From positions 1,812,333 through 1,876,332 of the forward strand of contig JAJEKV010000030.1 in assembly GCA_021234155.1 (NCBI GenBank): 64,000 nucleotides of DNA, given 5' to 3'. Positions 2,642 through 32,199 of this stretch are shown here, in pieces. Under the pieces are notes generated by a model. It did not search any database. It had not been told where the DNA came from and was given only the letters and a program-made list of their open reading frames with translations. Position 1 is the first letter of the stretch; every line of letters starts with the position of its first letter. The position numbers were made by a program, and so were the translations under genes. Source of the DNA: Isoetes taiwanensis. Lineage: Eukaryota; Streptophyta; Lycopodiopsida; Isoetales; Isoetaceae.

Positions 2642-2670
2642 GGGTCTAAGTTAGATATTGGGGTACAAAA
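2642..2670 (+). repeat. E1 left terminal inverted repeat with TCTT target duplication
   Basis: 29 bases identical to the reverse complement of 15590-15618. Preceded by TCTT at 2638-2641, which is repeated at 15619-15622. The repeat starts GGGT and ends in an A run, as does the E2 terminus. Confidence 0.95.
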
Positions 2671-2993
2671 GCACCCGTCTGGACGCGCTACTTTTCCTGC
2701 TTGGTCCGCTGTGCTTGGAGGTGCTTGGAGAGCGGGAACGCGATGATCCGTTTTTAGCAAATTGCTTCCGGATCGATGACATGGCTACCCGCAAAATCAA
2801 ATCCGGTACAGAATCAATTTGGCGGGGTTGTTGTGAGATGGCGTGGAGAGTGAATAGGATTTGGCTATGGCGGGAAGCATGATCCGGTGTTGTACCCCTG
2901 AACAGAATTTTCTTTGTGCAGCACGATTTCTCTGTACAACACAATTCTCTGTACAACACGATTCTAAATGGATCAATCAGCCATCAGATTTAG

Positions 2994-5617
2994 ATGAAGA
3001 AAAGCGACTTCAAATTTTCCGGGAAATTCAAGCCGAGAGAAGAAGGCAGGGAGAAAGAAAATATCCAGCCTCAAGTTGACAGCGGCTTGAGTGCGAGAAG
3101 GCTTCAAGAATTGTCCAAGAGTTTGGACGATTATTTCAATAATATCACAAAACCTTTGAAAGAAGGGGATAAGGCACTGGTGGTGCACAGATTTGTGAAG
3201 AGAGTGAGGAAGAAATTGCTACTGGAGGTGGATTTTGTTGATCATGATCAAAGCAAGATCATGAAGAATATAATTAGAAATGTTCAAGAGACACTCAATC
3301 AGCAAAAGAAAGTAAGGAAGACATATATAATGCAAGCAAGAAAGTCCACATTGCAAATGGTATCTTCAACAGCAAACAAAACCAACCAGTCTGCAGTTGC
3401 ACGCCTCCTTCATGTATCAAGAAAATCTGTTATTGCAGCAACCAGAAGAAGAGTAATGGCAGAACAAGAATGTGGTCCGTGGTCAATGTTTTCAAGGAAA
3501 AAGAGATCAGATGCAATAACCCGGTGAGGTTAAAATTACATTTTACAAGTTAAGACCCGAGAAAACACAAGAATCTCACCATACAGGAAGCATGTGAGAA
3601 AGTTTGTTACAAAAGATGGTGAAAGAATTGATCATCCAATACAACTGCTTGAAATTTCTTAGGTAATTATTATACTTTATATGTTTTACCGCTTGTTCTG
3701 CTTTACTAGATTGCCGCTTTTAATTTTTTTTGGAACTTTGTATTTCTGCTTTGTTTCCTTTTTGAAGGCCATGTAAAATTGCAACTATAATAGTTGCAAT
3801 TTTACATGGCCTTCAAAAAGGAATTCAATGAAATGAAGATTTCCAAAAGCACATTTGAATTCTTTGAAGCCATCTTTTGTGTGGCGTTTAAAAGAAAGAG
3901 AGACACATTCTTTGCCAATATCACATGCACTTTGAGTATGTGATGCAAGCACTCAACAAAATCAGAACAGATCCAAATGGAGTGCACAAAGAATGCAATT
4001 GTAATTGTGCTGTTTGTGGTGATGGTAACTTCTGTAGTGCCAAGAACCATGTTTATAAATCCACTAGTGATTTTTGGAGGCAAATGGTCTGCTCTAAAGA
4101 AGAAGATGAAGAATGGCACAAACATCAATGTCTGCAGTTGGCATGCAAAGATTGTGGGCTGAAAAGGTACTCTTAAGTTTGTCTCTTCAATGCTATGATG
4201 TTTAAAGATATTACCGTCAGTAACTTTAATTGTGGTGTTATAAACAGGTTTGCTTTTTGTCCTAAGGAGAAGATGGAAACTGATTACAAGGTGGAGTGGA
4301 AACAGTTTGAAAAGGTATTCTATTTGGCTTAATTAAATTGTGCTCGTGTAACATGCTTTTTAAACAAACTGCAAACTGACAGAAATGTTCATGGTCTGAA
4401 ATCAGCAAGAAGTTGGATACATGAAGGAGACTACCAAGAAAAAAATGGGAGGGAGGAAACCAGCAAAAGTAACAAGACTTGCATACAAGAACGAGAGTCT
4501 GCCCCAGTTCATGAAGCATGCTTCCAAGACAATGGTACAATTTGTCGCACACAATTATATGGCACACTGGCAGGCAAAGCAATTCAGGACGTGTTTGGAT
4601 ACCTTTCCTGAAGATGCAATTGTCTCTGTAATTGACTTTGCTGAAAATTACAGTTTTAAAATTCAGAGGGAGGCACAATCTTGCCAGCGGCACCGCGGAC
4701 CCGGGCCTCAATTCGGTTCATATCACATATAGACATGCAACCCAAGCTGAGATAGAGGAGATGGAAGTTAAGGAGGCAGAGCAAAGAGAAGAAGAGCGAG
4801 ATAAGCAGAAAAGAAAGAAGAAGACAAGTCAAGAAACCATCAGCACTAATCAGAGGAGAATTATAAAGGAAGTGCACTTTTATATTTCAGATGACAGGGA
4901 GCATAGCACTGAGTTTGTACAATATTGCTTGAAAGTACATGCTGACTGGCTTAGAGCATAGAACATTGAGTACAAGAAACATATTTTTTGGAGTGATGGT
5001 TGCACATCCCAGTTTAAAGGAGCAAGGCCTTTCTGGTATTTAGGAAGGAACTATGTGTGTAGTGAAGGAATTGAGTATGAGTGGAATTTCTTTGCCAGTT
5101 CTCATGGCAAAGGAGAACATGATGGACAAGGTGCAATATTGAAAAGGGTTTTGGCAAGAGAGCAATTGAAGTATGAGGCCTGGAAATTGGATCGTGTCAA
5201 AGATATTGTGGATTTCATGAACTGGTACATAATGAACAATCCACCAGACCCTCATATAAGAAGGTAAATTCTTGTTTTTTCTTAGATTTGAAGTTGCATG
5301 AATCTGTTTTATATTGCAGGTTCTTTTGGCATATTGATCCCCAAAGTGTAGACAAATCTGAAAGGAAGGAGTGGAGAACACTATGTGGGAGCTCTAAACT
5401 TCATTGCATCAGACCATGTGACAAAAAGAACCCTGCAAAAGTTGCTTACAGGTGCCTCTCTTGCTATTGTTCTTATTGCTTTCATGGTAAAATGGATGAT
5501 TGCACGAACAAAGCACGTTTGGGAGCATGGCTCACAGCAGAACTGAAACCAAAGATGAATTCTCACAAGGCACCCAAAATTATAACACTGCATGGTTTTT
5601 CCCATGGTTATGACTAG
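2994..5617 (+). pseudogene. E1 transposase-like gene, N-terminal to DDE-like core
   Basis: A multi-exon gene broken by frameshifts. The first ORF (2994-3527, 177 aa) is basic, with an HTH-like stretch (SAVARLLHVSRKSVIAATRR). An exon from about 3800 reads YMAFKKEF, then after a shift gives a zinc-binding cluster HKECNCNCAVCG (about 3979-4014) and LACKDCGLKR up to a GT donor at 4166. A short exon (about 4248-4315) follows. The core exon starts near 4388; its first acidic motif is VIDFAENY (Asp codon 4634-4636), then FYISDD, WSDGCTSQFKGA (about 4990) and SHGKGEHDG (about 5100). These look like the DDE/D positions of an RNase H-fold transposase. The exon from 5321 ends in a Cys-rich piece, CLSCYCSYC. 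Breaks: a GC-rich out-of-frame patch at about 4680-4710 and a TAG at 4959. E2 has the same motif order. The family resembles animal and plant DNA-transposon proteins; the superfamily name is not certain. Confidence 0.75.
3755..3823. repeat. perfect 33-bp inverted repeat with 3-base loop
   Basis: Arms 3755-3787 and 3791-3823 are exact reverse complements around TAA. The right arm overlaps the start of a transposase coding exon (YMAFKKE reading), so the left arm looks like an inverted copy of that exon edge lying in the preceding intron. RNA from here could fold into a perfect hairpin. Confidence 0.95.
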
Positions 5618-6094
5618 AAAACTATTCTAGAAAACCAATGCATGTTTGTGGGTTGATATCATTAAAAACCATATGTGACTAAACTAATGGGTTCTCTTGT
5701 AAGGTTTGTTATGATGGTATTATGACATGGTAATTGCAAATAGTTTCTTTGTAGAGTTTGTCAAAGTGGTATTACATGTTGGTAAGTTGATGTGGTACAT
5801 TATAGTGTTTAAGGGTATGGCTTGTGCATGTGGTATAACATGATGGTTGTGGATGTAGTTTAATATAGTGTTGTTATGGATGTGGTTTAATATAGTGCTC
5901 AATTTATGTGAAAATATAATGTGGTTGATTGTTGTGGTATACTAGCATGGCTAAATGTCATGGTAAATGCACATGGTTCACAATGCATTAGATGCAAATT
6001 ATGATTATTTATAGTAATTGTTTGTCCTAAATGTGTATGGTTTTGTTATGTATTAGCTTCATGTTTATCATTAATAAACCAGTATGATAACCAA

Positions 6095-6235
6095 CAATGT
6101 TTTGTTGTTTGAAGCATTTCATGTTTAATAATGTTCTGTTGTTTGAAGCATTTCATATTTAATAATGATAGCATTTCATGTTTAATAATGATAGCTAACA
6201 ACGTTTTGTTGTTTGAAGCATTTCACGTTTTGTAA
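6095..6235. repeat. short tandem motif, GTTTGAAGCATTTCA
   Basis: Three to four diverged copies of TTTGTTGTTTGAAGCATTTCATGTTTAATAATG-like units of about 33-50 bases, non-coding and AT-rich. Confidence 0.7.
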
Positions 6236-9200
6236 ACTGAAACTCTTAAAGACTGTGAATGGTTTCTTTTATATATTATAGTACGTATTCCAACTATGTC
6301 ACTAGTCCTCAATAGCAACACAAATCAGGGAGCAAGGGGATTTGAACCCCCATTCCAAAACTCATAAACAAAACAATGACAAATCTATTTTTAAAAAGAA
6401 ATATGTACAATGTAAATTTAGATCAAATAGCAAACATCCAGCATAGGAAGAAAGTAATGACCTTGCATTTTTATTTAAGTACTCAAACATCGAACATATA
6501 TTAATACAGCTCAAATGGATCACATATTAATCCAACTTAAACAGATCACCTCTATTTGGATCACCTCGAATTCCCTGTGGTGATGCGACAAGGCCCCGCA
6601 GATTCCACCTACTGTATTCAAAGTGGAGATTCAAAAATTACATTCCACGCATATTCCTAGCTTTGAACTACCCTTGATGCAGACGGTGTTTGCCTATTGC
6701 CATAGCTGGAAGAGTAGAAAAGAGAGAAAATTGTGTGTCAAAAAACAAGAGTCTGGCTTAGCGTTGTAGTAAAATAGGGCGTCAATGAAACTTTACCAGA
6801 CCTGCTGACTTTAGATGTATGTGCTCCTATTGGTTGACAATGGCATTTGAAGCATTCCACTCTGACCACAAGCTACCAAGCATTATTCGTAGTCTGTCTC
6901 CAGATGCCGACCAAGATCTCCTGCATAACAAACAAAGCAACCCTGCTTATAAACATTAGCTAAATAAACGGCATAACAAATAGAGCTAGACTTGGAAGGT
7001 CCTACCTGCCTCAATCAGCATGAGCTTCCATTTGCCAAAAGGGAAGAACCAAATAGCAAGAGCATTAAGGATAACCTCAAGGTAAAGTTGCAGATCGATT
7101 TAGCAAGCCCAAAGTAGTTGCATCACAAAATGAGGCCCATTTACAGTTGGATTATCAAACATGAATAAGATGCAAGCCAAGTGAGAATGAACACTTCTAT
7201 CCAGTATAATGCATAATCTGTCATTGCAGCGGAATGTTCTTGATAACCTATTGATGACTGCAACCAGTGCAGATTGAATGCATGCAGTTAAAGAAGTACT
7301 AGAAACCAAGGCTATAAAGCATTCTCATTTCAGGAAAAAATATGTCCTAGATAGGATGGGCTAACATGAATTTTTCCCCTAACCTTCTTCTGATATGCTA
7401 GCCTTCTTCTGATACAGTCAGCTCCTGGTGGAGATATTCACGCATCAAAGCTTGAGTCAAAAGAAAAGGTTTTGAAGCCTTTGATACATATGAGAAAGAT
7501 CAGGATCATATCTCAGGCTTGATATTATTCCCATACCTCGACAACCAAGCAAGCATCTTTCCTTTCCTCGCACCTATGTTGCTTTAAACCCGAGGTAAAT
7601 CAAAAAACTCAACTCCGTGAAAGGGATATTTTAATCCACTTACTATTTGTCATTTCATTTTAGTTCAATGAAAGAAATGTATGAGCCGTGAAAACGACAT
7701 AAAAGGACGTAATAAAATAAAGAGGAGCAAGCCAAACATACCTCTCAGTAGTCATGCGACACACGAAAAGAAACAATAAACAATGAAGAACAAATGAAAC
7801 AAAATAATCCATCTCGGCTTGAGGCGGCAATGAAATCCATCTCTCGGGCTGAAGCCGTGAAATGAAAAATTCGCCGCAGGTTCCGCTTTGCTTGCTCAAG
7901 ACGCCGGGGAGCTCAAGGTTTTACTTGCCCCGATGGTCGGAGGCGCCTCAATGAGGGTTTGCCGCCTCATTCCCTTTGAAGTCGCTTCCCCCCTTTTTCA
8001 TAGAGAGCAGTAGATCACAATCGTAGCCGTTGATGACTTCCATATTTGGATTTTAGACTAGTTGAATTTGTTTTCACGCATTTTTCAAAATTTAAGCATG
8101 TAGTTGTTTGAGTGGTAACCTAGGTGTATTTACTTAAGCTCGGATTTCCACTAACGATTTCCACTAGCTGTATTTTACCTAAGCTCGGATTTCAAAATGA
8201 TGTGGCCTCATAGTTTCAAGGCACTAACATAAATTTGTTTGAAATTGCTGCATCTTCTACTTTAAAAACTTCCAATAAGCCAACCACAAAACCACTAATT
8301 AGCTATTTTTAACCGTGCATTCTTCCTATTGTCGTTGAAATTTTATTCTACCAGGCAATATTGGCCGAAAGCATGAAAATTCCACGACAACAACAAAAAT
8401 AATACCAGTTATGCAATGCAGCTACCACAACTAAAGAGGGATGAACGACAAAATGTGACGTGGGGATTTCCTATTGGCTTCTATTTTAAATTAAAATTGC
8501 CACTGCCGAAGCTGAGGAGAAAACTTGTTCTAATTCTAAATCATAGCCAAAGGACAATAAAACCTAGATAACATTGCCTTATTGAAACGAAATCCCTGCT
8601 CCAGTCTAATCCCGATGAAAACAAGACTCGACATATTTGCTGCAAATAAAAAATCCACCGTACAGCCGCATGCATGTAAGCAGCCTCCAACCTTGGTGAT
8701 GATCTGTATCAAGCTTGACTTAAGGCCATCCATCTTCTGGAGCCTGTCAATATAACATTTAGCAGCCAGCAGAAACATCGCCAGATCCTCTCATCTATCT
8801 GGAGATGCATTCTCAGAAGAACAAGAAAAAGGTCCGTACCATAGATTAGCTCCAGCCGCTATGGCGATGGCGTTGGTCGTAGAGTCTGTAGCCGATAGGA
8901 CTAGGCTCCAGCTGTTACACATTAAACTCAACGTCTCAATATAATGATGCCTCTCCTGCATTGCCGCCATAAGAGAAAAAAACAAAGGATCGATATGCAT
9001 AATTTTAGTTTTTACCGGTTGGGTTTTTTCATTGTCTCTCGTGTGTATACTAGGTGGAGATATGAGAAGCGCCGTATATATCGGACGCCAACATGTTATA
9101 GCCACGGGCATATCCGTGGTATATCCATGTCTTTGACATGTTATAGCCACGCCAAAAAAAAATTACACGGCGTTTTTGTGGACTTAGCGGATTTTTTGCC

Positions 9201-9484
9201 ATTTAAGGCTGGCTATAACATGCCCACGTTCGACATTTACCGCGATGGGAGGTATGCGTCCAGATTCTCGTTATTATTTATCCCTACAAGAAATTTATCG
9301 CGATGGCCAAGCCCGCTACAAACATTTCTTTAGTTCAGACCCGTGCAATTGAACTCAGTATTATTTGACAATGCAATGCTTGCTTAAAAAACAAAGGAAG
9401 GCAAGTTCACAAGCGAACACATTCATTGTTTATACAAAGAAAGTTAGAAGCAAATAAAATGAATTAAAAGATGCCACATACATT

Positions 9485-9610
9485 TTGTGAGGGTTATAAA
9501 CAATAAGAATGATTCTATGTGCAACTGCAAATGAATCTTGAGGATTAAGAACAATAAGAATGAATCTTTGTACAACTACAAATGAAGCTTGAGGATTATA
9601 AACAATTACA
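9485..9610. repeat. diverged tandem repeat, about 60-bp unit
   Basis: Units share AACAATAAGAATGA, then a tract ending ACAAATGAA(T/G)CTTGAGGATTA. Two full copies and a partial third are visible. Non-coding. Confidence 0.75.
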
Positions 9611-9827
9611 ATTACAAATGAATCTTTTCACAAATGCAAACCTCCAATGCAAGGAGTATAGAACTCTAACTCTAGAAGTTAGAATTTAGTCAGCGTAATG
9701 GGCTTAAACCCCAATTACACTTAGATTGAGTCAAAGCCCATCATGTTGCATATAAGGATGAGCTAAATTACATTGTTGTTTGGACAAATATCTGAGCTTG
9801 ATCATATTTCCATGTCCATACATATCA

Positions 9828-10061
9828 CCTTCCAGAATGTGCCATCAAAATCTAGAGTTTAGAGCAAACAGAAGGAGCGAAAGAGATAGAATGGCATCGC
9901 CTATTGCATGCATCATTTTAACGTACCTCCCTCGCTCATGCCTGTAAACAAACAAATTGTACCATTTATAGGTCACCTTCCAGAATGTGCCATCAAAATT
10001 TAGAGTTTAGAGCAGACAGAAGAAGCGAAAGAGATAGAATGGCATCGTCTATTGCATGCAT
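9828..10061. repeat. direct duplication of about 88 bp, copies 144 bp apart
   Basis: CACCTTCCAGAATGTGCCATC starts both copies and CTATTGCATGCAT ends both; they differ by about six substitutions. The phrase ACGTACCTCCCTCGCTCATG after the first copy recurs near 10371. Confidence 0.85.
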
Positions 10062-11742
10062 ATGGACTCTACAACTTTTTCTTTCTAAATTTAGATGGCT
10101 ACATAAATAAACTCAATTAATAGTCCTTTATTCGGATTAGTTCATATTCAGGGAGGCTTCATCTCTAATCTGATTGTGCAAATAAACAACAAATTGAATC
10201 ATATTGAATTGAGCATAGGGTGAGGGTATATGGTTAAATAACTCATCTATAAAGACCCGTACCTTACTGGCTCGCAAGACAGAATAAAACATTTGAGCAC
10301 ATAAAGGCCATTTGTACCATGTCATGCGCATCATTCCTGTTGTTTTCTAGGCTGGCCCCTGATCTTTTTAAACGTACCTCCCTCGCTCATGGTTTTTGTT
10401 CTTGCCATTTTTCTTCCAATTGTGATATCCTAAGCATTTTTTGCTCATGAAGCATGTTAGACCTAGGATTTCCTGTCTGAAGCCTTATAAACATTGTTTT
10501 CCATGAGTTATTCTTGCATGATAGTTTTTTCTTCTCTCAATTATCATTTTCTTTGCTTGGCTCTTGCTTTCAAGAGTTAAGCTCTGCTGTGTTGCTCAAA
10601 AATTGAAAGATGATTTGGTGTGCGAAGCAAAGCTACATTTGTGAATTTCGTCTTAAGAATGGCCTACATCATAAAAGCCCCATCCGGAAGGCACCCTTAA
10701 TGCCCAACCAAAGCTCAGTTTATGGAGGTTCTTCAGAAGGCTGAGCTAGATCAGAGTTTCACAAAAAAAAAAAACATATATCTTCCTTTTGTGTTTTCCT
10801 CTGGATTTAACATAAGACTCTACGGCCAGTGTTCCTGAAATGCAATAATTACATTCCACTCTCTAAGTTTCCAAAAATATATAAGTGCGCCATTTTTAAA
10901 ATGGAAGAGAGATGTATCAATGTTTATATAATCAACAACTTTTGGAACTTTTACCACAATGCACTGAACAGATATTGTGCCGTAGTCAAAAGTGGTGCTT
11001 CAATCTGGTTAAACTTCTGAATCAATCTATATTACCACATCTACTTGCAGATGTGCCTGAAAAAGAAAGAAATGTCAAATGAAAGAAAGAATACTTCTTT
11101 TGCAAAGATGAACACACATGTGTTCTTTACAAAGAGTTTGAACTATGAATTACAAATTACAAAAGACACCTTTTGTATTTTCTTATACATCGGTTTGCTT
11201 GATATTTGAAAAAAGTCTAACGTGCTTCGGAGGCTTCGAACAACAAAAATTACAAAAGATCATATCTATCGTGGTTTGATAGTGGTTAATTAAGACAATT
11301 TTTGGGTGTGCTTATGAGTAACCACTATGGATGGCTACATGCTTTTAGGTGATAGCTATGAGAACTATGACAAGTAACTCGATAGTGAAACTATGCTATA
11401 AACCACAACCATTTTATAGAATACAGTGATAATAGAAGACTAGCATAAATAACCACCCCATGACATTAGAAAAGCATGCCATAAACTAATTTAACTTTGT
11501 GGCAATAGAAAATCTACTAAACAACCATTGCTACCTTTATTGTGGTGTTGAAAAACCATGCTACAAACCATTGTCCATTTAATAACCCTTCTCGAACCCT
11601 TATATGTTAGAAAACAAACATGAATGACCACTATTTTTTGCTAGAAATCATGTAATAAACTAATATGGATTCTAATAAACCACGCTATACCAAAAAATCA
11701 ACATAAATAACCATGTACTAGATATTAAAACCACTATGTTAT

Positions 11743-12261
11743 GTGGTTTTGATTAAGAATGAAATTTTTGGCATAAGAAAATGCATAGTGGTTTTTCAGT
11801 GGTTTATTATAGTGGTTAAAGTTTTGGGTGCCTTGTCTGTTGCTGGAGAAACATCCACAGCAATTAGTCAGGGGGAAGAAGAAGAAGATGAAGAAGTAGA
11901 TTACCTTAGTTCTCTTGTAGAAGTTGGAGATAACTTTGCTGTAAATGCACATCCAGAAGATGATGAGGGAGTTGACTTTTATGTTCTTAGGTGTACAGAG
12001 ACTAAACACACATTGTTAGATACATATGAAGATGCTTGGGGTACTGCATTTGGTGTAGGAGAAGTTATAGTTTCTGGCCATTACTACAAGCAAACAGATG
12101 CACTCCAATTTGAGTTACTATTGGACAAGCCAGTTGCTAGTTTGTATAGCCACCTTGTCAGACATGTGAAGTTTGATATGGAGAATCTTGGTAACAACAG
12201 TTTCAAGATGAGTGAAGAGACATGCCAAAAAGTTATGGCATCCCTTCCAGTAGAGTGCTAA
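11743..12261 (+). pseudogene. E1 transposase C-terminal module
   Basis: The ORF is 172 aa, but the meaningful part starts near 11830. It is acidic (EEEEDEEVDY) and then gives VGDNFAVNAHPEDDEG, FYVLRC, VIVSGHYYK, YSHLVRHVKFDM and a stop at 12261. E2 encodes a matching series (IGDIFASFAAPGN, then GVIAGHYYQ) directly after its DDE-like core, so I assign this segment to the same gene as 2994-5617, now separated by the presumed nested insertion. The GD-FAV pattern suggests a small SH3/BAH-like barrel; that is inference. It ends about 470 bases before the stop of the convergent FCP1-like gene, an arrangement shared with E2. Confidence 0.6.
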
Positions 12262-12733
12262 TTCTGCTGTCCGTTTTTTCTGCTTTTGCTTCGAAGAAGC
12301 AGAAGTTGAGTTTTTAGATGTACACTGGCTCTTTCCTGCCATATTCTTTCTTATACTCTTTATAATTCGTTATCAATGAAAACTAACAAATTCTTTGCTG
12401 TACAAATGTTCCTTGTCCTCACAGCTTTAAAAGAAAAGCTGCTAGGTCTGCTTTTCTTACTTATGCTTTGTCTGCTTACATGCTTTCTGTTTTCAGTTAA
12501 CTATTACAGACTTGATGAACTTCTGGAAAACAGACTTCATGGACATGGAAAACAGATTGCGAGTTTACAAATGAACAAAATGATGATCTGCACAAGTGTA
12601 GGTAAATGCCTGAAACCTTGAATTTACATTAATATCCGTTCTGTTACAAAAGTGTACAGCTATGTACTCATATACAGTCTTCACAAAGAAACAGCTGTTA
12701 TATCTTAAGTTACATCTTAAGTTACATGAATTT
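12262..12733. other. convergent intergenic gap in E1
   Basis: AT-rich stretch between the two tail-to-tail genes. The short ORFs here lack motifs. It should hold both 3' untranslated regions; AATAAA-like signals are weak. Confidence 0.5.
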
Positions 12734-13639: not shown

Positions 13640-13796
13640 AAAAAAAGAAACTTAAACATCAACATGACTTAAACATGAATTAAAAGAAGTCATTAATTAA
13701 AGAAAACAGAGTTACAATATTCAAACAATGTTCTCAAACAACATAAAATAATTAAAACAGTATTTAACATACACTGCAATATGTTATGTTCTGAAA

Positions 13797-15602: not shown

Positions 15603-15618
15603 TATCTAACTTAGACCC
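15590..15618 (-). repeat. E1 right terminal inverted repeat with TCTT target duplication
   Basis: Reverse complement of 2642-2670, 29/29 bases. Followed directly by TCTT at 15619-15622. Confidence 0.95.
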
Positions 15619-17514: not shown

Positions 17515-17538
17515 GGGTAAAAGAAAGCTAGGGTGTCT
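17515..17538 (+). repeat. E2 left terminal inverted repeat with CATC target duplication
   Basis: 24/24 identity to the reverse complement of 32176-32199; CATC lies immediately outside at 17511-17514. Confidence 0.95.
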
Positions 17539-20177: not shown

Positions 20178-20201
20178 TTCCTCCTTCAGCTTATATTCAT
20201 A

Positions 20202-20729
20202 CTATAAGTCCAACACATTCAACTGTTGTTTGAATTTACTGAATTTGACTTCTGCAAGTGCTTTAGTGAAGATGTCTGCTGTTTGACTGTTAGTGTCAAC
20301 ATATTTCATTTGAATGATACCTTGTGATGCCAGATCTCGTATGAAATGAATACTTAGCTCTATATGCTTAGTCCTGTCATGATGAACTGGGTTTTTCACT
20401 ATAGCTATGCAACTTTGGCTATCTGTCATAATCTCTGTAGCTTCACTTTGTACATGATTTAATTCCTCCAATAATCTTCTCAACCATACTATTTCTTTGG
20501 CCACTAGAGATGAGGCAGCATATTCTGCCTCTGCAGAGCTCATAGCTATGGCAGCCTGTTTTTTGCATCTCCAAGTTATAGCATTTTTTCCTAGGAATAT
20601 GACATATCCTGATGTTGACCTCCTTGTGCTTAGATCTCCTCCCCAATCTGCATCACTATAGGCAGTTAGTCTTAAATTTTCTGCAGTATAACATATACCT
20701 TGAGTGGATGTTCCCTTTAGATACTTTTA
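20202..20729 (-). pseudogene. copia RNase H domain
   Basis: Reads KYLKGTSTQGICY, AYSDADWGGDLSTRRSTSGY, AAIAMSSAEAEYAA, MTDSQSCIAI, TKHIELSIHFIRD and ADIFTKALA, the standard copia RNase H and C-terminal sequence. It is in the same frame as the RT domain, separated by one TAA at 20727-20729. Around that stop the RT end reads in a shifted frame, explained by two compensating small indels (an extra A in CTAAAAG is one). Confidence 0.9.
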
Positions 20730-21851: not shown

Positions 21852-21860
21852 CTTAGCTTC

Positions 21861-22859
21861 TTATATGAGTTTTTCAACTTGTGTTTTTCTTTTTCTTCTG
21901 ACTATTGTTTCCTTGTTCTCAAGGTTTCCATTGTTGATCTGCTGGCCTTGGCTGAGTTCTTGTTGTGTATTTCCATTTTCTGTTTCCACATTATCCTCTT
22001 GGCTATTTTCATCATTTTCATCAACATCAAATTTTACATCCTTATGTTTGATGTGTTCCTCCTCAATCTTATGCCTCCTTTTATACCTGTGCTTGTACAA
22101 TATGTTTTCATTGAACAAGACATCTCTACTGATTATGATTGTTTTGTTTTCTGGATTGTAAATTCTATATCCTTTGGATTCATCATCATAACCAACCACA
22201 AATCCAATTTCAGCCTTATCATCCAGCTTTTTCCTTAACTCTTTGGGTATATGTGAATATGCCAAACACCCATATACTTTGTACTTGTCAAAATTAATCT
22301 TTGTGTTTGGATTCCATAGCAGACTAGGCAGATTTCCATCAATGCTGCTTGATGGCAAATTGTTTTGTATTTCTACACTTGTCTTGAGTGCTTCTTCCCA
22401 TAGATTGCTAGGTAGTCCACTTTGCTTCAACATAGATCTAACAGCATCTAATATTGTTCTGTTTTTCCTTTCTGATACACCATTCTGTTGAGGGCTATGT
22501 CTGCATGTCAATTGCCTTTTAATTCCATGCTTCAAGCAATATAATCTGAATTTGTCAGATAGGTATTCTCCACATCTATCTGACCTAATACATTTCAGTT
22601 TATTTCCAGTTTCTCTTTCAGATGCCACCACAAATTGTTTAAATGCTTGTAGTGCTTGGGACTTTGTAGTTAGAGCATAAGTTGTGCACTTTCTACTGAA
22701 ATCATCTGTAAAGGTAATGAAATACCTTTTATTTGTCCTACTTTTGACATTCAGAGGACCACAGAGATCTCTATGTACCAGCTTTAGCACCTGAGTTGCT
22801 CTGGTTTTTCGTTTGGCAAAAGGCAATCCGCTTCGCTTTCCCAAAAGCACATCCTTCAC
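21861..22859 (-). pseudogene. copia integrase domain
   Basis: A 332-aa ORF with LVHRDLCGPLNVKSRT, ITFTDDFSRK, IRSDRCGEYLS and PQQNGVSERKNR, the integrase core with its D, D, E positions. Downstream are VYGCLAYSH and FVVGYDDESKGYRI, the copia GKGY-type region. The zinc-binding start of integrase lies upstream (about 22860-23010), broken by stops. Confidence 0.92.
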
Positions 22860-23211
22860 ATATGAAGTGTGCTTGAGTTTTGTTGCAGCATATCCAACCT
22901 TGTTTAATCAATTGTTTGAGATTTTTGTTGTTTGTATGAGCAAGTCGATTATGCCATAGTTCTAACCCTTCTTCTGTTAATAGTATTGATGCTCACTACA
23001 TTTTCATTGCAAATAAATTTCCAAATCTGGTAGCACGAAATTTCAATTCATCCTTGAGATAAATATTACATTGCAATGAGTCAAAAGTGACCTCAGAGCC
23101 TAGATCAACCAGTTGACTAACAAAATCAAATTCTTGATTATTGTAGGCACACACAACACATTTTGTATATCTACAATGTCACCATTTAAATCTTCAAGCT
23201 GCAGCAAACCC

Positions 23212-23487
23212 TTACTGCTGAATTTTTTGTAGAGCTCCATTTCCAACTTGTATATTTCTTGAACTTGCATTGGTAGGATTCTTCAGTAGATCAGTGGACT
23301 GCACTACTGATCTTTCAGCTCCACTATCAACTACCATATAATCATCAAACTTGTTAGATTCAGCTTTATCAAGAATAGCAAATTCATTAAGTACCTCATC
23401 ATCTTCATCTTCAGAATTTGCTTTAGATTTTTCTCCATGTTCTTCAGCCACAAATGCTTTTTCATAACTTCTTCCTCTTCCTCTATT
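23212..23487 (-). pseudogene. copia protease domain
   Basis: Contains DDYMVVDSGAERSVV, the aspartic protease active site (D-S-G-A). It is in frame with gag across one stop at 23488-23490. Sequence on to 22860 is frame-disrupted. Confidence 0.88.
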
Positions 23488-24462
23488 TTAGGATCTGCCA
23501 CCTCTGCTGTCAGGTCTCCCTCTTCCCCTTGCATAACTCTTTGGAGTTGGACATTTTGAGGCTACATGACCTCTTCCACCACATGTGTAACAGTTAAACT
23601 CTTTTTTCAACTTAGGACATTCATTCTTGTAGTGACCTTGCTCATGGCAATGATAGCAAGTCACTTTCTTCTTAACAACTAATATCTCAGGATCATTAGA
23701 TTGTTGCCTTGATATTTTCTTTTGTTCCCATTCTGTTCTCAAACAATTTTCTGCTTCCTCTCTTGTCTTACAAGTATTTCTAATAAATAAGGCAAGATTT
23801 TCATTATCCACTGTTCTAGATATTTGCAGAATTTGGCTTCTGTCTGATACATTCACATTTGCCCCGGCAAGATCAGCTATGAGGTTATCAAACCTATCAA
23901 AGAACCCTGAGACATCTTCATCCTCTGCTAATTTTAACCCTCTTAATTCATTTTCAAGTAAATCAATTTGAGAGGATGTTTTATCTTCATAATGTTTAAG
24001 CATATATTTCCACATATCTCGTGGACTCGAGCCCCTTAATTTCAACCTAATTGTAGGACTTACCTTGCAAGATATGATTCCTTGAGCCTCCTTTGCTTTT
24101 GCATACAAGGATTTTCCTCCTGAGCTGCTTCCTCCTGTTGTACCTCCTGTACCTGCACTTTGAGAAGTCCTACTTCCCCCTGCTGTGCCACCTGCACCTT
24201 CATTTTGAGAAGTCTGCCCTGCACCTGCAGCATTAGTTGAGCTAGCTGTGTTAGAGCCAGATCTCGTCAGTATTCCTGCAGTAACATTTCCTTGGGGATC
24301 CACCAAATCCCACAAATCTTCTACTTCCAAGATGTGTACTATAGCATCCTTCCAAATCTGGAAACCTGGACCTCCAGCATACACATCCACAGTGTTGAGC
24401 AAGCTTGCTCCAAATCTGCTAGACATATTACTAGCTCTGATACCACTGTTAGGAATTGACAC
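23488..24462 (-). CDS. copia gag with two CCHC zinc knuckles
   Basis: A 324-aa ORF. It starts near the primer site, includes FQIWKDAIVHILEVEDLWDL and a Gly/Ser/Thr-rich low-complexity insert (about residues 65-115), then the gag core (KYMLKHYEDKTSSQIDLL). Two zinc knuckles follow: CYHCHEQGHYKNEC and CYTCGGRGHVASKC. It ends at a stop before protease; whether this stop is natural or a lesion is unclear. Confidence 0.9.
   Translation of the reverse strand: MSIPNSGIRASNMSSRFGASLLNTVDVYAGGPGFQIWKDAIVHILEVEDLWDLVDPQGNVTAGILTRSGSNTASSTNAAGAGQTSQNEGAGGTAGGSRTSQSAGTGGTTGGSSSGGKSLYAKAKEAQGIISCKVSPTIRLKLRGSSPRDMWKYMLKHYEDKTSSQIDLLENELRGLKLAEDEDVSGFFDRFDNLIADLAGANVNVSDRSQILQISRTVDNENLALFIRNTCKTREEAENCLRTEWEQKKISRQQSNDPEILVVKKKVTCYHCHEQGHYKNECPKLKKEFNCYTCGGRGHVASKCPTPKSYARGRGRPDSRGGRS
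24432..24446 (-). other. copia primer-binding site (initiator tRNA-Met)
   Basis: The minus strand immediately after the 5' LTR reads TGGTATCAGAGC (after one G), the common plant copia site complementary to initiator tRNA-Met 3' end. Confidence 0.93.
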
Positions 24463-25209
24463 ACAAACTATAATGACCTTTGCAAATTACTTGTCTAGCA
24501 AGATTTATTCACAAAAATTTTCTTCACATGCACTAGGGAGCCACAAGATGGTCACTTATCCCTTGTGCTTGACAAATAAAATAAAACTCTTAAGTTCTTA
24601 AAGCAATTCAAACTTTAAGTCATGAGAATGAAAATATTAAACCATTGAACAGTTACTGTAGCAGGGTCATTTACTCGAACACTGTTCCTGCTTTGACCGA
24701 TATTTGTATATCGGATTCTTCACCAAAAACTTTGATTCTGCTTCATCCACCGTGTATATATCCTCTGCTATCTTCATTTCTTATATAATGCAGACTTCCG
24801 GCGGTTAAGGCATCATTCATGCTTTCCAATCTGAGGCTGTTGTCTATTGAACTATATCCCACAGGCTTGGCAAAGGAAATCTGCTACTTTCGATTTATAC
24901 CACATACCTGCTTTAGGAAACAAGTCCTTTAACCATTAACCAATTTTCGCCCCTAATTTGTAAAGCACATAAAGCACTTATATGCATAAAGCACTTATAT
25001 GCATTTGCTTTCATCTTCAACTGCTTGCATTTGAACAATACCCCATAAGTGAAAATACTGTCATCATTGTAACCAAACTCCCTGCATCTAGTAAGTATGT
25101 TGTAGTCCTATGCAAACCTACTGCCACTGCTTCTCATAGGTTGCTTTGTAGTCAAACAAATATTCACTGCCACTGCTTCTCATGAATATAAGATGACTAT
25201 TTTCTAACA
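24447..25209 (-). repeat. copia 5' LTR
   Basis: Same length as the other LTR. Differences seen are TTTTCGTC versus TTTTCTTC, TTTATCCC versus TTTATACC, and GTCACCATTG versus GTCATCATTG. Confidence 0.95.
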
Positions 25210-25341
25210 TACATTACATGTACATTCCATCTGGATAAATAGCTGTTTACATGTGTATGTACTCAAAGTACTTCAATGTAGATCAGTTCTAGTAATATGT
25301 ACAGCTATTGATATGTATAGAACAGTTAGAGACTGATTAGT

Positions 25342-26094
25342 TTGAGACCCGATATCCGATGTTATGTGATTTATTTTCGTGAGCTTCAAAGTGCCAAAAA
25401 CTACCGAGCGAAATTACACCACGATCCAGGTCGCTTGTTTTCAAATTCTATTTGCATTGTGTCAGAGGAAGCAATTTCTTATTCTTGGTTCGGTTTTCAC
25501 AGTTTTGGAGGTTCCAAAGAAAATTGAGGTGCAAGATGTAGCCGAGGGAAAGAAAGCAGTGATTGAAGGAAAAAGCAAAATCACTATTCCTCAAGGGTGA
25601 TACAGGTTGAGGAGGCTGGCACCAGTGTCTGCATGGTGACATTCCGTTATGACGAGGAACTCGAGAGATTGAGGGAGCAGGCTAAGGCCACATCTTCAAA
25701 AAGTAAAGGCAAAGCAGCCGAAAAATGTGACTCCAAAGAAGAACTCCACGCCTAAAAATTGAAGCAAGAGAAACAATTAAGAAAGCATTTTATTTCCCGA
25801 GGTACAAAGATTTGAGAAATCCATGACATCCTATGTTTACAGTCCTAATGAAGAGGAATATTCGAAGCATCAAGATGTAGAGCGGGATACTTTTAAGTTT
25901 GTGTCAAATATTGCTTCCGACATAGCAAAGGACGCTGAATTTCCCCGACAATGAGAAATCGTGGAGAGGTTGCGACGAGGATTCCGGACCTAATAAGAAT
26001 CGAAAGTGAGGAAACCAAAAAAGTAGGGAAGGAAATGGATAATCGACTCAGAAAACAAAGATCATTAGAGCGTAAGAATGATCTCTATAGGTAA
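25342..26094 (+). pseudogene. E2 coding remnant with coiled-coil character, function unknown
   Basis: Several short frames give protein-like sequence: VPKKIEVQDVAEGKKAVIEG then KITIPQG; VCMVTFRYDEELERLREQAK; DTFKFVSNIASDIAKDAEF; and ETKKVGKEMDNRLRKQRSLE. The DTFK..IA.DIAKD phrase resembles VDWDTFKVLAKDLAKGG at 18.2 kb, so this may be a second, diverged copy of the RING-gene N-terminal part, or a later exon. No RING is seen here. Frames are broken throughout. Confidence 0.4.
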
Positions 26095-26212
26095 CTTGAT
26101 CTACATTTCTTACATTTTTTTACATCTAGTATCCAAGTTAAAAACTTTAAAATAATATGGATAGTAGTAGACTAATGTAGATGATTTGTGTAAATGTACC
26201 GGTCATTGAACC

Positions 26213-27355
26213 CGCATCGCAGCTCAATACACAGCCATACGATGCCTTGCTGAACCGAATGATGAAGCTCAAGAAGGCAAGGATTTTCCCGTGATCTTTG
26301 CCCGAAATGGAGTGTTATTTATTTGAACAAGATGTCTTTGGACATGGATGTGGGGAAATTTTCCAACCCAAGATGTGGATATGTATGCCGTCTTTGGACT
26401 TTGAACTTGTTCATTTGTATGTGTAAGTCAAGTTAGTAATTGTATCCTTTTTCAACTTGTTATAGGTACCGCAGCTCTCGTGTTCCGGATGATAAGAAGG
26501 CCGACGTCCGTTCTTCCCACCGGACAGCTTCATGGAATTTGCAAAGATGGGCCAAGGCAAGTTTAAAAAGATAAATCTATGGCAGCCTCCGGAAAGCGTG
26601 GAAGAGATATTGTAAAGGTAGCTCTTCTGAGGGGATAAATTGGCTGAAGTGCGTATGGATCATGATTCCAATGCTATGTAGAGTTATTCTTGAACATCAC
26701 ACTTTGGCCATCTTCAACATGGCACTTACTAAGAGTAAGAACACCATCAACATTCAGATCTTCAATTCTGCCGAGGACATTGACGTTGACATGCTTGCAC
26801 TTAAGAGGTATTTTGTATTTCACATCTCCTTTTATTAATATTGAGTAGATTGGATACCATGTTAGCGACTTCTTTCATTCATTTGCTACAAAATAGATCC
26901 GTCTTTTTGCGGCTCCATATCCTCACTATGGCACGCGGTTGTGTCGAAAGTGTCCCACTTTTTGAAGCATGGACAAAATCCTTCACCGGTTGTGAAGATT
27001 CATAAGTGTCCACGGCCGAAAAGATGGGGATTCATGTGGCCTCTATGTTGCGGCTTATATGCGAAGTTTGTAGACACAATCGTGTGTGGTAAAACTACCA
27101 ATGTGAGTGTCTCACTTCTTTTGTCTTGCAAAACAAATGGTTTTAATACTTATTATGTAAGTATTGTTGTCACATTTGCAGATTACCCGAAACTGGTTCT
27201 TGACAAAGTATGCATCTGATCGTCGTGATGTTCTCACCCGAGCACTACTTCAGGAGTTAGACCACATTCACTTCGCACCCGAAACTATTAGACCACCTGG
27301 TACTAATAAATGTGGGAGAAACAGCCTCTCCCTATTGTCAATGCTAAACACTATT
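26213..27355 (+). pseudogene. E2 Ulp1-like (C48 peptidase-like) remnant
   Basis: Segments: FFPPDSFMEFAKMGQGKFKK (about 26500), then WLKCVWIMIPMLCR followed by LEHHTLAIFNMALTKSKNTI and NIQIFNSAEDID (26641-26790), and, after a probable intron, KVSHFLKHGQNPSP, KCPRPKRWGFMWPLCCGLYA (26940-27060) and a final exon ITRNWFLTKYASDRRDVLTR. The order IP-x-HHTLAIF-x-FNSA-x-CCGLYA parallels Ulp1/SENP peptidases (IP.., HW, D/N, DCG). The catalytic His, Asn/Asp and Cys could be HH, FN and LCC. Ulp1-like proteases are known passengers of several plant DNA transposon groups. The assignment is by eye and uncertain; no counterpart is seen in E1. Confidence 0.45.
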
Positions 27356-27464
27356 TGATTATAAAATACACATTTTTTTCATTGAATTTGAATACAATCT
27401 CTTTTATTCAACTCCACCATACTTTATTGATAAATTGCATGTTCTTTCATATCGGGGTGTACCA

Positions 27465-28145
27465 AAAGGTTGATAGTGTTTGATATCAATAATGTTTTGG
27501 CAAAACAAATACATAGGACTTTGGTATCGGATGATCACTAGTTGGAAATTATGACATAATAGGCAAGAAAGTGTTGTTTTAAGGCCCCACCTAGACGAAA
27601 TTCCTCGAATTTGTATTTGAACACTTTGAAGTAGAAATATGGTCATCAATAGCTCCATGGAACCTATCAAGAGTAGTGGATAAAATCTTCACAATGACGC
27701 AGAGATAAAGGGACTTAAGGTTCACCTTTGATGGAAGCCACCGCTTGAAGCTGCCTTTCCGGATTGCGCAAGTGAAGATAAACCTTTTGTATCTGAAGCC
27801 AATTGAGTTTATATACGAGAAGTATCCGGCAGAATGACAAAGAACACACTAATAGTAGACGACTCAGAGTACAAGATGCTCTTCATTCCCAAATCGAAAA
27901 TTGCATATGCCCACCTTCATGGCGGGGAAAGTGATGTTGAAGACACAGTCTCTTGACACTTCAAAACCATAGCTAGAGGGTTTGTTGATAGCACCAGACC
28001 TGCAACAGTATGTGAAGCAGAATCCTTTACGCAATCCATCCGATGTACTAACAACAGCTGTTTGGAGGCAAATGCTTTCAGAGGGCTACAGGGACAGAGA
28101 TGGCATGTCCAGGCTATGGACAAGCTGCAAGAAAGTAACATATTA
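27465..28145 (+). pseudogene. E2 FCP1/SCP-type phosphatase-like gene
   Basis: RLIVFDINNVLAKQIHRT starts near 27470 and matches KLIILDINGVLVNTF of the E1 gene, again with DIN instead of DxD. After frame shifts come RPHLDEFLEFVFEHFEVEIW (about 27570-27640), aligning with E1 RPFLQEFLDWSFERFEVGIW, and LIVDDSEYKMLFIPKSKIAY (about 27848-27910), aligning with E1 VLVDDSLYK. It lies tail-to-tail with the E2 transposase. It is a pseudogene, but three motifs in the same order make the family call solid. Confidence 0.75.
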
Positions 28146-28389
28146 AAACAGCGAAATAGTATGTAATCGGCTTCACATCGGTGTGACCAGATTTTGAATG
28201 TAAATTAATGTTAACATAAAACATGAACAACGGACTTGTATATATTGGCATCATATCCGATATGACCAAAGTTGTATATCTTGTGATATGTAATACAAGA
28301 GTTTTTGTCTCCATACATGTTCCACTTTCTCGCTTTGTTTCATGAATCAAAAGAAAAGCTATTGATATCCATTATAACGAACAAGTTCA

Positions 28390-28752
28390 CAGACTAGTTT
28401 AACTTCTTCATGCAACAATTGATGAACATTTTGTACTTTCTGATATACATTGTGCTTGGAAACAGAAGATATTGTGTGATACTGAAATTTAAGTATCAAA
28501 ATGCACTTCAGATTAAAAAATAAGTAAATAAGAAAAACTTGCGTCGACTAGTTTTCTCAACATAACAATGCACTAGTTTAACTTCTTCATGCAACAATTG
28601 ATAAACATTTTGTACTTTCGATATACATTTTGCTTGGTCACGTAAGATATTCGTGATCTTACCAAATTTAAGTATCAAAATGCACTTGATATTAAAAAAT
28701 AATTAAATAACAAAAAAACTTACAGCAATCGACTAGTTTTCTCAACATAACA
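28390..28752. repeat. tandem duplication, period about 182 bp
   Basis: ACTAGTTTAACTTCTTCATG starts both copies (about 28392 and 28573); both contain AAGTATCAAAATGCACTT and end near CGACTAGTTTTCTCAACATA. The copies differ by several substitutions and small indels. It lies between the convergent E2 genes. Confidence 0.88.
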
Positions 28753-28799
28753 GAAGATAATGGCAAATATGAAAGTTCCTTTGTACAGAACTTAGTCAT

Positions 28800-31700
28800 G
28801 TGCACTCAACAATCTCGTGTAGGCTTGATATAAGCATGTCATGCACCTCTCGTGGTGATCATATATGCCGCACGTGCCCCTTCAACTTATGCTTGACCTC
28901 TTTGCATCGTGAACTTTGCTCCAATTACGATTCAGGCGGTACCAATACTATTTTGTCATCCAAAGAACTTGTACTTGTGCTTTGTGCCTTGTAGCGTTTG
29001 ATAGTAATGACCAGCTATAACCCCTGTCACCAGCAAGCATTCTATTTCCATAGTCGTCAATCACATCTTCTCAAGAATATGCATCTCCTTCACGCATAGG
29101 AGGACGGTATGGAACATTTTCATGATTCCCTGGGGCAGCAAAAGATGCAAATATGTCTCCAATTTGGAGTACATTGATAGTTCTTGCTCATCACCGCATA
29201 AAACCAACTAGCTCTTCTTGTTCGGCCGACTTTGGGCGAACTAGGCTCGGTTGTGCAGCTTCCACGCACCACAATGCTCGAGATTCTCACATTCTCCCCA
29301 TCTGAAATTCAAGCAAGCATTGCAAAAACATGACATGGATCTATTCATGACAAGTGTTGGGTCACCGGATTAATAGCGCATACACAAATGTATAGCTAGA
29401 GTACCGTGCAATGTCTCACAATCGACGAGGGTCCCCTGTTAATGTCTTACGCTATCACCTCCCATATGATGACTCGCCCATTTTGCACTTCTTTTGTCTC
29501 AAAGAAAGTGCAAGCAGAGTTGGCACCCAAAATCGGAACACCATTCTCTTTCCTTTGCTCGTCTGCTAGGAACCTTTTCTCCAAAGCAGCCTGCCCATCA
29601 TGTTCTCCTTTTCCATGGCCTGAGCCAAAATAATTCCACTGCATCCTAATTTTATACCTGTTATAATATTGGGCCACATTCAAATAAAAGGCTCGAGAAC
29701 ACTTAAACTGAACAGCACACCCATCAGACCACATGACATGGTATTTGATGTGGCCAAAACCTTTTTGCATCATCCAAATATGGTGCTTCTTGAGTGCAGC
29801 CTGAACAAAGAAAGCATCATGCTTCATAACATCGGAAACATACAAATGAACAGTTTTTTTCAGCTCGCCATTGACTTTCATCATGGTTATATGCACCAGA
29901 ATAGTTATCTGGTCATTGTTCCAATGCTCGGACTGAACCTCCCTGAATGGCTGCAAAGTGTAGTTCTCTGCAAAGTCCATTACTGACAAAACGTAATCAT
30001 CCCTCAAATTTTGCAATCGATTTCTGAATTGTTTGCTCACGCCAACTTGTGAAAAAGTTGTGAATAGTGAACTTTGTAAGGTGCTGAAACATCTTGTCAA
30101 GCAATGTACCTGGAGTCCCGCTTTCAGTAACAAGCTTCAACCTCCTTGAAGTGCCAGCTTTGGAAGGTTCATTCACGTACTTGTAAACTTGCCATTCAAT
30201 GTTCTCATTCTGCGACTCTTTCTCCTTAGGACAGATTTGAATATTTTTAGTGCCACAGCTTCGCACTCTCCCTTGACACCTGATCCAAACTATGCCACTC
30301 TTTCGCCTTCCTTATCACGCACCATAGCTCTCCACATAGCACCAACATTTTGAAATGTTTTAGAAGGAGCTTGGCGGGCGCCATTGTTCTCATCATCTGC
30401 TGCACAAACACCACAAGAACATGTACAGTTGGCATGAAATTTGCTCCTCGGGGCCGCTTAAAAGCTTTCTGTAGATAGATCAGCTTGTTCATGCTTCACG
30501 CAGGCGACATGTGTTCCTCTCTTTCAACCTTCTCACACATGTAGGCTTAAGCAGCTCGAACTTTCGATGCTAATCTTCACTTCAGGATATTCATCTTTGA
30601 ACATCTCATACAATTCACTCTGCAAGGAAAAAAACGGCATGTATAAGTAAGATATAAATTAGAACTACTTACGAATTCAAAGATGTTGCAGACATTGCAT
30701 TAGTTCTATGGCACTCAGATCATGATTTGATATACATTCAACTACTATATTACACCATCATACATACCCTGTACATGATATGTATAAATGTATAAATAAT
30801 GTACTCCAAAGAGTTCCAGATGTACATAAAAAAACTCAATATGTAACCAGGTCACAGACAGTATCACTGTATTACAGATGTATGTATTTCATACTTTTCT
30901 TATGGAAGGAAGTATACATTTAAATACTTTTATGTATCACCCTATCTTTAAAGACTATTTTGAGATCAGGAAGGCTTAAAATGTACTATAATGTACTTGG
31001 GAACTACAAAAAGCAAGACTATAATAACACAGCCTGACTTTCAACACATTTTCTGCCTTATGCCACATTGGATGTAACTGGAAGTACATCCAAGTACTTT
31101 TCCTGTTAAACATAGCTCATTCAAGCCTCCAAGTGTAAAAATATAATTATTGTAGTTGGATGTACTACAATGTATATCGATACATCCCTTACATGGAATG
31201 CAAATAGGATTACTAAACTTATCCAGGATGCACATAAGCTAGCTTCTATCAAGCTTGCAAGAAAGAGGATTACAAGACTTAAAACTGACCTGGGGCATGT
31301 CCAAAAACCGGATTGAAGTGTCCTTTTCTTCCCGACATCCCCTGTACTTTGGAGAAGTTTTTGTGTGGGTTAACCAAAACTCATTTACCAACCTGCTTGG
31401 TTGATTCCTAAGCATGTCCGCCTGGTTGCCTTCTGCCGGTGGGCCACATATTAGCACCTGATAATGACATCCGTTTTCTTCTAATTGCAGCTTTTGTGAG
31501 GTTTCTTGCTTGCACTTGAAGAATTCTGGAGGCTACTCCTTTTTGTCCGAAGTTTTCCATTCTCACCAACAATCATTGATAACAGGAATGCTTAGTCGCT
31601 AATTTATCATTGCTATTTGCTTGTTTCACTTCCCTCAAGGACCTTCACGGATATTTTTAGCATAGTATCCTTCAGAATTGCTTGCACCGGATTTCCAATG

Positions 31701-31940
31701 GCGTGGTTCAAAAAAGAAGTGCAGCCTTTCATCCCAGGTTTTTCATCGCTAAAGCTCTCCTTTGCACAGGACGTAAATCTTGAACCTGATCATATATAAA
31801 TTTACAAATTTCATCAATCTTACGCTTCATTTTCTTTGTCACATTCCCGATATTGCAATCTTCTTGCGCCATTTCTGTTCCTTCGTTGTTCATCATGGTT
31901 CTTGCGTGGTTTAGGGTTAGCTGGAGGAATTCTGGCAAGA
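28800..31940 (-). pseudogene. E2 transposase-like gene
   Basis: Reads leftward from near the right TIR. N-terminal pieces: KKMKRKIDEICKFIYDQVQD (31.8 kb), EFWLTHTKTSPKYRG (31.4 kb) and LYEMFKDEYPEVKIS (30.6 kb, matching E1 YMAFKKEFNEMKIS). Zinc-binding part: HANCTCSCGVCA then MWRAMVRDKEGE (30.43-30.31 kb), matching E1 HKECNCNCAVCG. Core ORF 30133-29447 (228 aa): LSVMDFAENYTLQPFREVQS, EHWNNDQITI, VHLYVSDVMKHD, VMWSDGCAVQFKCSRAF and GSGHGKGEHDGQA; the Asp of MDFAENY, the Asp of WSDGC and the last acidic group are candidate catalytic residues. After an apparent intron the C-terminal module gives IGDIFASFAAPGN and GVIAGHYYQ (about 29.2-28.9 kb). Stops (for example near 29060) and frame changes disable it. 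The core ORF is intact and better preserved than in E1. Confidence 0.75.
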
Positions 31941-32175
31941 AGGAGGGAAGGGCGAAGTTTTAGCCAGAAAGTGGGAAATTCTCCTAACGTTCAGGCGTTT
32001 CTTGGAGTGGTTACAGCGGCGGGAATTGAAATCTGCTTCATGATTGCGTTTTAATTGACGTGGCAAGTAGTTCCGAAAAAAAAGATTCCATAATATAGCT
32101 ATTATGTACATACTGAAAAAACGGTTATGTATTTGAAATGTGATACATCTCTTACTCTACATTTGGCCAAATGTA

Positions 32176-32199
32176 AGACACCCTAGCTTTCTTTTACCC
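32176..32199 (-). repeat. E2 right terminal inverted repeat with CATC target duplication
   Basis: Reverse complement of 17515-17538; CATC follows at 32200-32203. Confidence 0.95.

Follow-up and report, generated by a model that had tools for sequence, protein, structure and literature searches.

Do the large DNA transposons of a lycophyte carry accessory genes that have been inherited together with the transposase? The question is raised by a window of 64 kb (the whole stretch of DNA analysed here) from Isoetes taiwanensis, contig JAJEKV010000030.1, positions 1,812,333 to 1,876,332. A first-pass annotation of its sequence had described two large diverged elements, E1 and E2, with terminal inverted repeats (TIRs) starting with GGGT, 4-bp target site duplications (TSDs), and the same plan of three genes: a transposase, an FCP1/NIF-like phosphatase gene, and a coiled-coil gene with a RING-like domain. 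DNA transposons usually carry one or two genes. We find that E1 and E2 are real DNA transposons; they are probably decayed copies that represent two lineages within a single large group of Sola-like cut-and-paste elements, in which the accessory module would help the element to escape silencing or to complete transposition.

Two transposons in the window and the genes they share

Among the 27 GGGT...ACCC pairs of the window that lie 0.2-30 kb apart and have equal 4-bp flanks, only E1 (2642-15618) and E2 (17515-32199) match at 20/20 terminal bases, the next best pair reaching 11/20; the direct match of the flanks is exactly 4 bp in both. By end alignment, E1 has a perfect TIR of 29 bp at 2642-2670 (+ strand) and 15590-15618 (- strand), and flank comparison gives the TSD TCTT at 2638-2641 (no strand) and 15619-15622. 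The perfect TIR of E2 measures 24 bp (17515-17538, +; 32176-32199, -) and is bordered by the TSD CATC at 17511-17514 and 32200-32203. The ends had thus been correctly described in the first-pass annotation.

The window copies are oversized because of nested insertions, without which E1 has a length of ~6.7 kb and E2 of ~8.9 kb; complete relatives have 6.8-8.8 kb. A segment of ~6.28 kb within the E1 transposase gene (5555-11838, no strand) is missing from the copies C1062, C1065, C1036, and C1072, and since window positions 5554 and 11839 are joined directly in C1062 (7099 bp) and C1065 (6834 bp), it is an insertion nested in E1. Inverted repeats of 22 nt are present near its ends (5565-5586 and 11815-11836), but no target duplication was found, and its interpretation as a simple TIR element is doubtful. 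In E2, the nested sequence is a long terminal repeat (LTR) retrotransposon on the - strand (19415-25209), of Copia type as judged by eye, with the 5-bp TSD TACAT and LTRs that are 99.5% identical.

The transposase genes of E1 and E2 are homologous (tblastx 1.8e-32 for linked pieces; 53% identity over 66 aa for the core piece), and both are broken, as judged against other copies. The E1 exons lie at 2994-5554 (+), with frameshifts and a stop at 4959-4961, and comparison with the copies places the C-terminal domain beyond the insertion, at 11839-12258 (+). The E2 gene occupies 28900-31900 (-), with a core open reading frame (ORF) at 29450-30136 (229 aa); the ORF 29447-30133, the E2 core ORF of the first-pass annotation, is this transposase core and not a phosphatase. 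Both genes encode a C-terminal cysteine cluster, followed in E2 by a domain extending to ~28900, and the E1 product has the motifs DFAENY, WSDGC, and HGKGEHDG. A candidate DDD triad is formed by the D of DFAENY, present in 4/4 rows covering that motif, and the D of WSDGC and of HGKGEHDG, present in 6/6. A perfect 34-nt palindrome with a 1-nt spacer was also observed within the E1 transposase region (3755-3823).

On the strand opposite to the transposase, each element has an FCP1/NIF-like gene (FCP below). That of E1 (12737-13639, -) is open and has the motif DINGVL (DxN), the frame 12737-13651 giving a Pfam NIF match of 5.9e-16, and that of E2 (27464-28020, +) is degraded and retains the motifs DINNVL and VDDSEYK. 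The E2 counterpart is detected by tblastn with the E1 protein (9e-7), by frameshift-aware alignment (score 132 versus a maximum of 66 in 12 shuffles), and, after joining of its pieces by hand, by the NIF profile (1.1e-7); in two control regions of the same alignment test neither FCP nor the coiled-coil gene gave any signal. At a NIF (PF03031) cut-off of 21.8 bits, E1 scores 59, the copy C1062 53.4 (its FCP frame of 303 aa is open), the hand-joined pieces of E2 32.2, and the diverged loci L061 and L062 59.4 and 54.3, respectively; a further locus, L066, falls just under the cut-off with 21.4 bits.

The third gene stands at the far end of each element. In E1 it lies at 14266-15605 (-) and encodes a coiled coil and a RING pattern (~14540-14715); the stop at 14659-14661 reads Tyr in C1062, where the RING region is open. 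The coiled-coil gene of E2 (17846-18910, +, outer limits by eye) is degraded, its supported stretch being 18062-18235. Frameshift-aware alignment of the first 128 residues of the E1 gene with E2 scores 59, a value reached by 0/120 shuffled queries, and a coiled-coil model built from the loci L067 and L068 alone finds E2 at 6.5e-8 and L069 at 1.1e-20. Plain tblastn of the E1 gene against E2 gave nothing significant, and the remainder of the gene (coiled coil and RING) gave no signal in E2, 39/60 shuffles being as good. All eight RING ligands (C-x2-C ... C-x-H-x2-H-x2-C ... C-x2-C) are present in C1062 and L061, and a RING model from these two finds L062 at 2.6e-9. The plan of three genes proposed for both elements therefore stands for the transposase, for FCP on the opposite strand, and for the coiled-coil gene, which is homologous in E1 and E2 and marks the far end, but the RING was not found statistically in E2.

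Between the FCP and RING regions of E1 lies an acidic, AT-hook-like exon of low complexity, delimited by eye (13800-14222, -); it is not counted as a feature in common with E2, since one control region scored as high as E2 (z 3.5). A putative splice, also seen by eye, would bring FCP and the RING region of E1 together in a single transcript.

E2 has in addition a degraded gene similar to the Ulp1/C48 proteases (26575-27216, +), which is found at 0.0016 by a model built from L067 and L068 only. Its pieces have no Pfam match, and no C48 match was obtained for them in Pfam or PDB. The identity, first read by eye, was accepted because the corresponding pieces of L068 pass the cut-off of Peptidase_C48 (PF02902; 4.5e-7, 30.3 bits versus 20.7) and the model made without E2 found E2.

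Copies and diverged relatives in the genome

The host assembly is made up of 1110 contigs that total 1,658,258,908 bases. Candidates for these elements run into the hundreds to thousands, all genome-wide counts given here being lower bounds. The first 260 bases of E1 gave 40 scored matches among 312 candidates, all of at least 97% identity. With the E2 transposase core, 150 of 7816 candidates were scored, with open frames up to 629 aa, and with the FCP protein 129 of 5415 (140 match rows), ranging from 100% identity (the window itself) down to 41% and including many open frames. Behind 26 of the 40 E1-type ends a scored FCP match is located on the opposite strand within 18 kb, in 15 of these 26 at a distance of 4.3-4.8 kb; they correspond to 25 distinct FCPs, as two ends on contig C572 share one match. 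The other 14 ends have no scored FCP within 18 kb on the opposite strand. This pairing used 120 of the 140 match rows, and those left out are further pieces of loci, none of them near an end counted as lacking FCP.

Ten of the 40 E1-type copies were examined over 16.7 kb of sequence each. Transposase, FCP, coiled coil, and RING are all present in four of them (C1072, C1065, C1062, and C1036). C907 has the transposase and FCP up to the edge of the examined stretch, C1033 is a deleted copy in which traces of each of the three genes are left, and C974 consists of scattered pieces; only transposase pieces are seen in C1050, just a weak match to the coiled coil, on the other strand, in C1030, and none of the genes in C1046. 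Both TIRs are visible in five of the ten copies, four of which have a 4-bp TSD (C1036 has none). The element of C1046 (L057/L058) is 4537 bp long, with perfect E1 TIRs and the TSD AAAA, and shares just its first 384 bp with E1; it looks like a non-autonomous element with another interior.

The loci L061 and L062, selected through their match to FCP, show whether FCP is accompanied by the remaining genes. L061 (7587 bp) has a TIR identical to that of E1 over 29 bp and the TSD ATAG; in L062 (7163 bp) the TIR matches at 17/20 and the TSD is CAAA. Inside GGGT TIRs, both show the order of E1, and their FCP, RING, and coiled coil are encoded on the strand opposite to that of the transposase. Identity in the transposase core, FCP, and RING is 70%, 68%, and 76% for L061 and 51%, 42%, and 38% for L062, and both NIF matches are over the cut-off (4.4e-16 and 1.7e-14). 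Sequence comparison supports an old gene order common to E1, L061, L062, and E2, so that the earlier suggestion of a shared order in old relatives is borne out.

The 29-bp TIR is identical in the E1 family and L061 despite a coding dS of 0.5-1.25, and the ends are thus held constant; cross-mobilisation between the E1 family and L061 is possible.

Seven further loci (L063-L069), chosen with the E2 transposase because their frames are long or their identity is high, are not a random sample. FCP is in the expected place in L063 (8.5e-6, a fragment cut by LINE-like sequence), L066 (1.1e-13, DxN lost as judged by eye), and L069 (3.3e-23). The models found the coiled coil in L067, L068, and L069, and the Ulp1-like gene in L066, L067, L069 (3.3e-7), and E2. 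In the 10 kb searched at each locus, neither Ulp1 nor coiled coil was found by model in L063, L064, and L065, and no coiled coil in L066; the Ulp1 model also found nothing in E1, C1062, C1065, L061, and L062. With a TSD and a TIR at either end (18/20), L067 is complete as an element, and no FCP is detectable in it. Thus the gene set is not fixed, unlike in the earlier proposal: E2 and its close relative L069 have both FCP-like and Ulp1-like genes, and L067 and L068 have the transposase, Ulp1-like, and coiled-coil genes with no detectable FCP. The module consists of the coiled-coil/RING gene together with FCP, or Ulp1, or both. An arrangement unlike that of the other elements seen was observed in L065, where an intact FCP-like frame of 327 aa (L065:61-1041) lies upstream of the transposase on the same strand.

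Origin and possible role of the accessory genes

Selection was assessed by simple pairwise Nei-Gojobori estimates of the ratio of nonsynonymous to synonymous divergence (dN/dS) on frames chosen by us. Between C1062 and L061, the transposase core has a ratio of 0.043/0.51 = 0.08 (137 codons), the RING 0.17 (120 codons), FCP 0.19 (233), and the coiled coil 0.23 (67); between L067 and L068, the values are 0.19 for the coiled-coil gene (200 codons) and 0.15 for the Ulp1-like gene (63). With such ratios between families the accessory genes look constrained, which suggests that they are maintained by natural selection. Within the E1 family, FCP has a ratio of 0.62 (C1062 versus E1), as expected from the drift of dead copies. 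When L062 is compared, synonymous divergence approaches saturation (dS 1.9-2.9), with ratios of 0.21-0.30.

Several results weigh against the reading of E1 and E2 as members of one Sola-like group with an inherited accessory module. The RING scores are under the Pfam cut-offs, the best in C1062 being 16.3 versus 27 needed, and with the RING model built on C1062 and L061 there is no match in E2, L068, and L069, and L067 yields only weak scattered pieces. At least one of the three genes is missing from six of the ten E1-type copies within the examined stretch. FCP was not found in the expected place in four of the seven loci picked by transposase (L064, L065, L067, and L068), and L061 and L062, picked as they were, are uninformative on its frequency. 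An AlphaFold2 model of the E2 transposase core, made from four window sequences, is of low confidence (mean pLDDT 43.5); its order of strands and helices fits RNase H weakly, and its fold search of PDB gave 0 matches at E up to 0.001. Finally, FCP-like genes are not exclusive to these transposons, as demonstrated by the locus L070 and by NIF matches stronger than that of E1. The former annotation had regarded phosphatase-like genes outside such TIRs as adverse to its proposal, and in this respect it is partly contradicted.

The abundance of FCP-like genes bears on another explanation, by which the accessory genes would be mere passengers, taken up time and again from host gene families, and would owe their common order to a hot spot of insertion and not to inheritance or function. 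Searching the genome for NIF gave 3261 candidates; among the matches listed, 49 have at least 89 bits, compared with 59 for E1, which scores below the listed part, and ~100 dispersed matches follow at 61-85 bits. One of the latter class, L070 (NIF 8.5e-21), has the same DxN motif (DMNGVL), with no GGGT TIR and no E1/E2-type transposase within 8.5 kb, and FCP is absent from some elements. The occurrence of such genes outside elements slightly raises the odds of repeated capture and lowers a little those of the inherited module. We nevertheless consider repeated capture improbable, as the transposase, FCP, and homologous coiled-coil gene keep the same order and orientation in E1, L061, L062, and E2, and dN/dS is 0.17-0.23 along lineages separated by dS of 0.69-1.25. 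The former proposal that the accessory genes serve the life cycle of the element retains the shared order, the FCP behind 26/40 ends, and the low dN/dS in its favour, but not a constant set of genes.

As to the dispersed genes themselves, the segment L070:4382-8428, outside GGGT elements, contains the NIF-domain gene and, upstream of it, further open frames without a Pfam match over the cut-off. The ~100 dispersed matches in the range of 61-85 bits may stem from a further family that is multi-copy or mobile.

The catalytic motif of FCP/SCP phosphatases is DxDx(T/V). It was not found in the elements, where DINGVL (E1), DINNVL (E2), and DLNGVL (L061 and L062) have Asn in place of the second Asp; binding is therefore favoured over catalysis, and the FCP-like protein may bind phosphoproteins instead of cleaving them. 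The DxN motif occurs also in L065, and in L070 outside elements, and so is not a mark exclusive to the elements.

For the inherited module we propose the following mechanism. An RNase H-type transposase would bind the TIRs and make 4-bp staggered insertions, presumably by cut-and-paste, and the accessory proteins would act in trans within the host nucleus. The FCP-like protein, with its DxN motif, would mainly bind phosphorylated nuclear proteins such as the tail of RNA polymerase II; the RING and Ulp1-like proteins would tune the ubiquitin or SUMO modification of the transposase or of silencing factors. The module might thereby help the element to escape silencing or to complete transposition. 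That the accessory proteins act on RNA polymerase II or on SUMO/ubiquitin is our inference; a role in silencing or repair is our guess. More tentatively, and with somewhat less than even expectation, the elements may form a distinct, very large plant-type transposon lineage with a self-contained module for host manipulation, in which the coiled-coil RING protein would be partnered by a pseudo-phosphatase that reads phosphorylated nuclear proteins, by a SUMO protease, or by both, all of them encoded convergently to the transposase and long inherited.

The module may also have nothing to do with host silencing and function instead, once the DNA has been cut, in its repair or in the choice of target. 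A proposal of this kind exists for Ginger1, whose Ulp1 and OTU domains are suggested to target repair factors while the element transposes (PMC2836005). Such a function would leave the FCP-like protein unexplained, and we regard it as rather unlikely. If the module indeed acts on host transcription and silencing, three or four genes, including phosphoprotein-related and SUMO/ubiquitin-related ones, kept across deep lineages would represent a natural experiment on how transposons handle these systems, and the dozens of open frames in one genome make the module testable.

Described transposons and other features of the window

Compared by description, the elements agree with the Sola superfamily in their 4-bp TSD, their TIRs, their size, and a candidate DDD triad. 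The TSD has exactly 4 bp in nine of the ten elements tested (C1036 has none), and the TIRs, in which 22 to 29 of the first 30 bases match, are present in 10/10. Sola elements have a DDD transposase, 4-bp TSDs, TIRs of 11-1124 bp, and mostly 2-9 kb, and are known in a moss and apparently uncommon in flowering plants (PMC10741241); they have been grouped with RNase H1-like proteins (PMC3985635). The E1/E2 group shares the TSD length, the TIRs, and the size range, may with its candidate triad also share the type of transposase, and differs by accessory FCP, RING, and Ulp1 genes, which the excerpt of PMC10741241 does not mention for Sola. The earlier statement that no described superfamily fits is thus doubtful.

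In Pfam and NCBIfam the transposase passes the cut-off of no family, and a profile built on six transposase sequences has no match to PDB chains at E up to 1. Moreover, we know of no described element that combines FCP, RING, and Ulp1. A separate, undescribed superfamily, with the same TSD length acquired by convergence, would account for these facts. It seems doubtful to us, since the features listed above all fit Sola as described (PMC10741241) and the profile libraries may simply contain no Sola profile.

Accessory genes are found in other transposons as well. The Sola2-Fanzor chimeric elements of amoebozoa likewise combine a Sola2 transposase with an extra gene and have a 4-bp AT-rich TSD; however, the extra gene is Fanzor1, and the 3' parts are wholly unlike between families (PMC3627910). 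Ginger1 has the 4-bp TSD and, in some elements, Ulp1 or OTU domains, but it differs in its CCGG-type targets, TGTNR ends, and Gypsy-like integrase with fused Ulp1 (PMC2836005). In contrast, the E1/E2 group has GGGT ends, varied TSDs, and a Ulp1-like frame that runs opposite to the transposase, and with no Pfam match to rve or H2C2 in the transposase, membership in Ginger1 was rejected. Plant Mutator-type transposons with ULP1 domains are also plant DNA transposons carrying an Ulp1 protease; they have another transposase, and the excerpt of PMC2836005 does not mention FCP and RING in them, and their TSDs are of 7-12 bp (PMC10741241). A word search for Sola found no mention in the outline and passages of PMC8969392, nor in PMC3706591 and PMC5718144. 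Among the titles listed from the Sola and transposase literature, none names FCP or RING genes in such elements, although no search was aimed at those words and absence from print is not claimed.

Relatives of the transposase were also sought outside the host. None was confirmed in viral contigs among 3 and 170 stretches, and none was convincing by transposase tblastn in 10 viral and 22 prokaryote loci (best E 0.011 and 0.017; chance matches by eye).

Elsewhere in the window, a protein kinase gene is located at 48419-50815 (Pfam 8.4e-46), with a partial copy at 42177-42941 (87% DNA identity), and a tandem array at 35592-36804 is composed of units of 159-182 bp and 59-72 bp with GGGCGCCCGCCC-like motifs.

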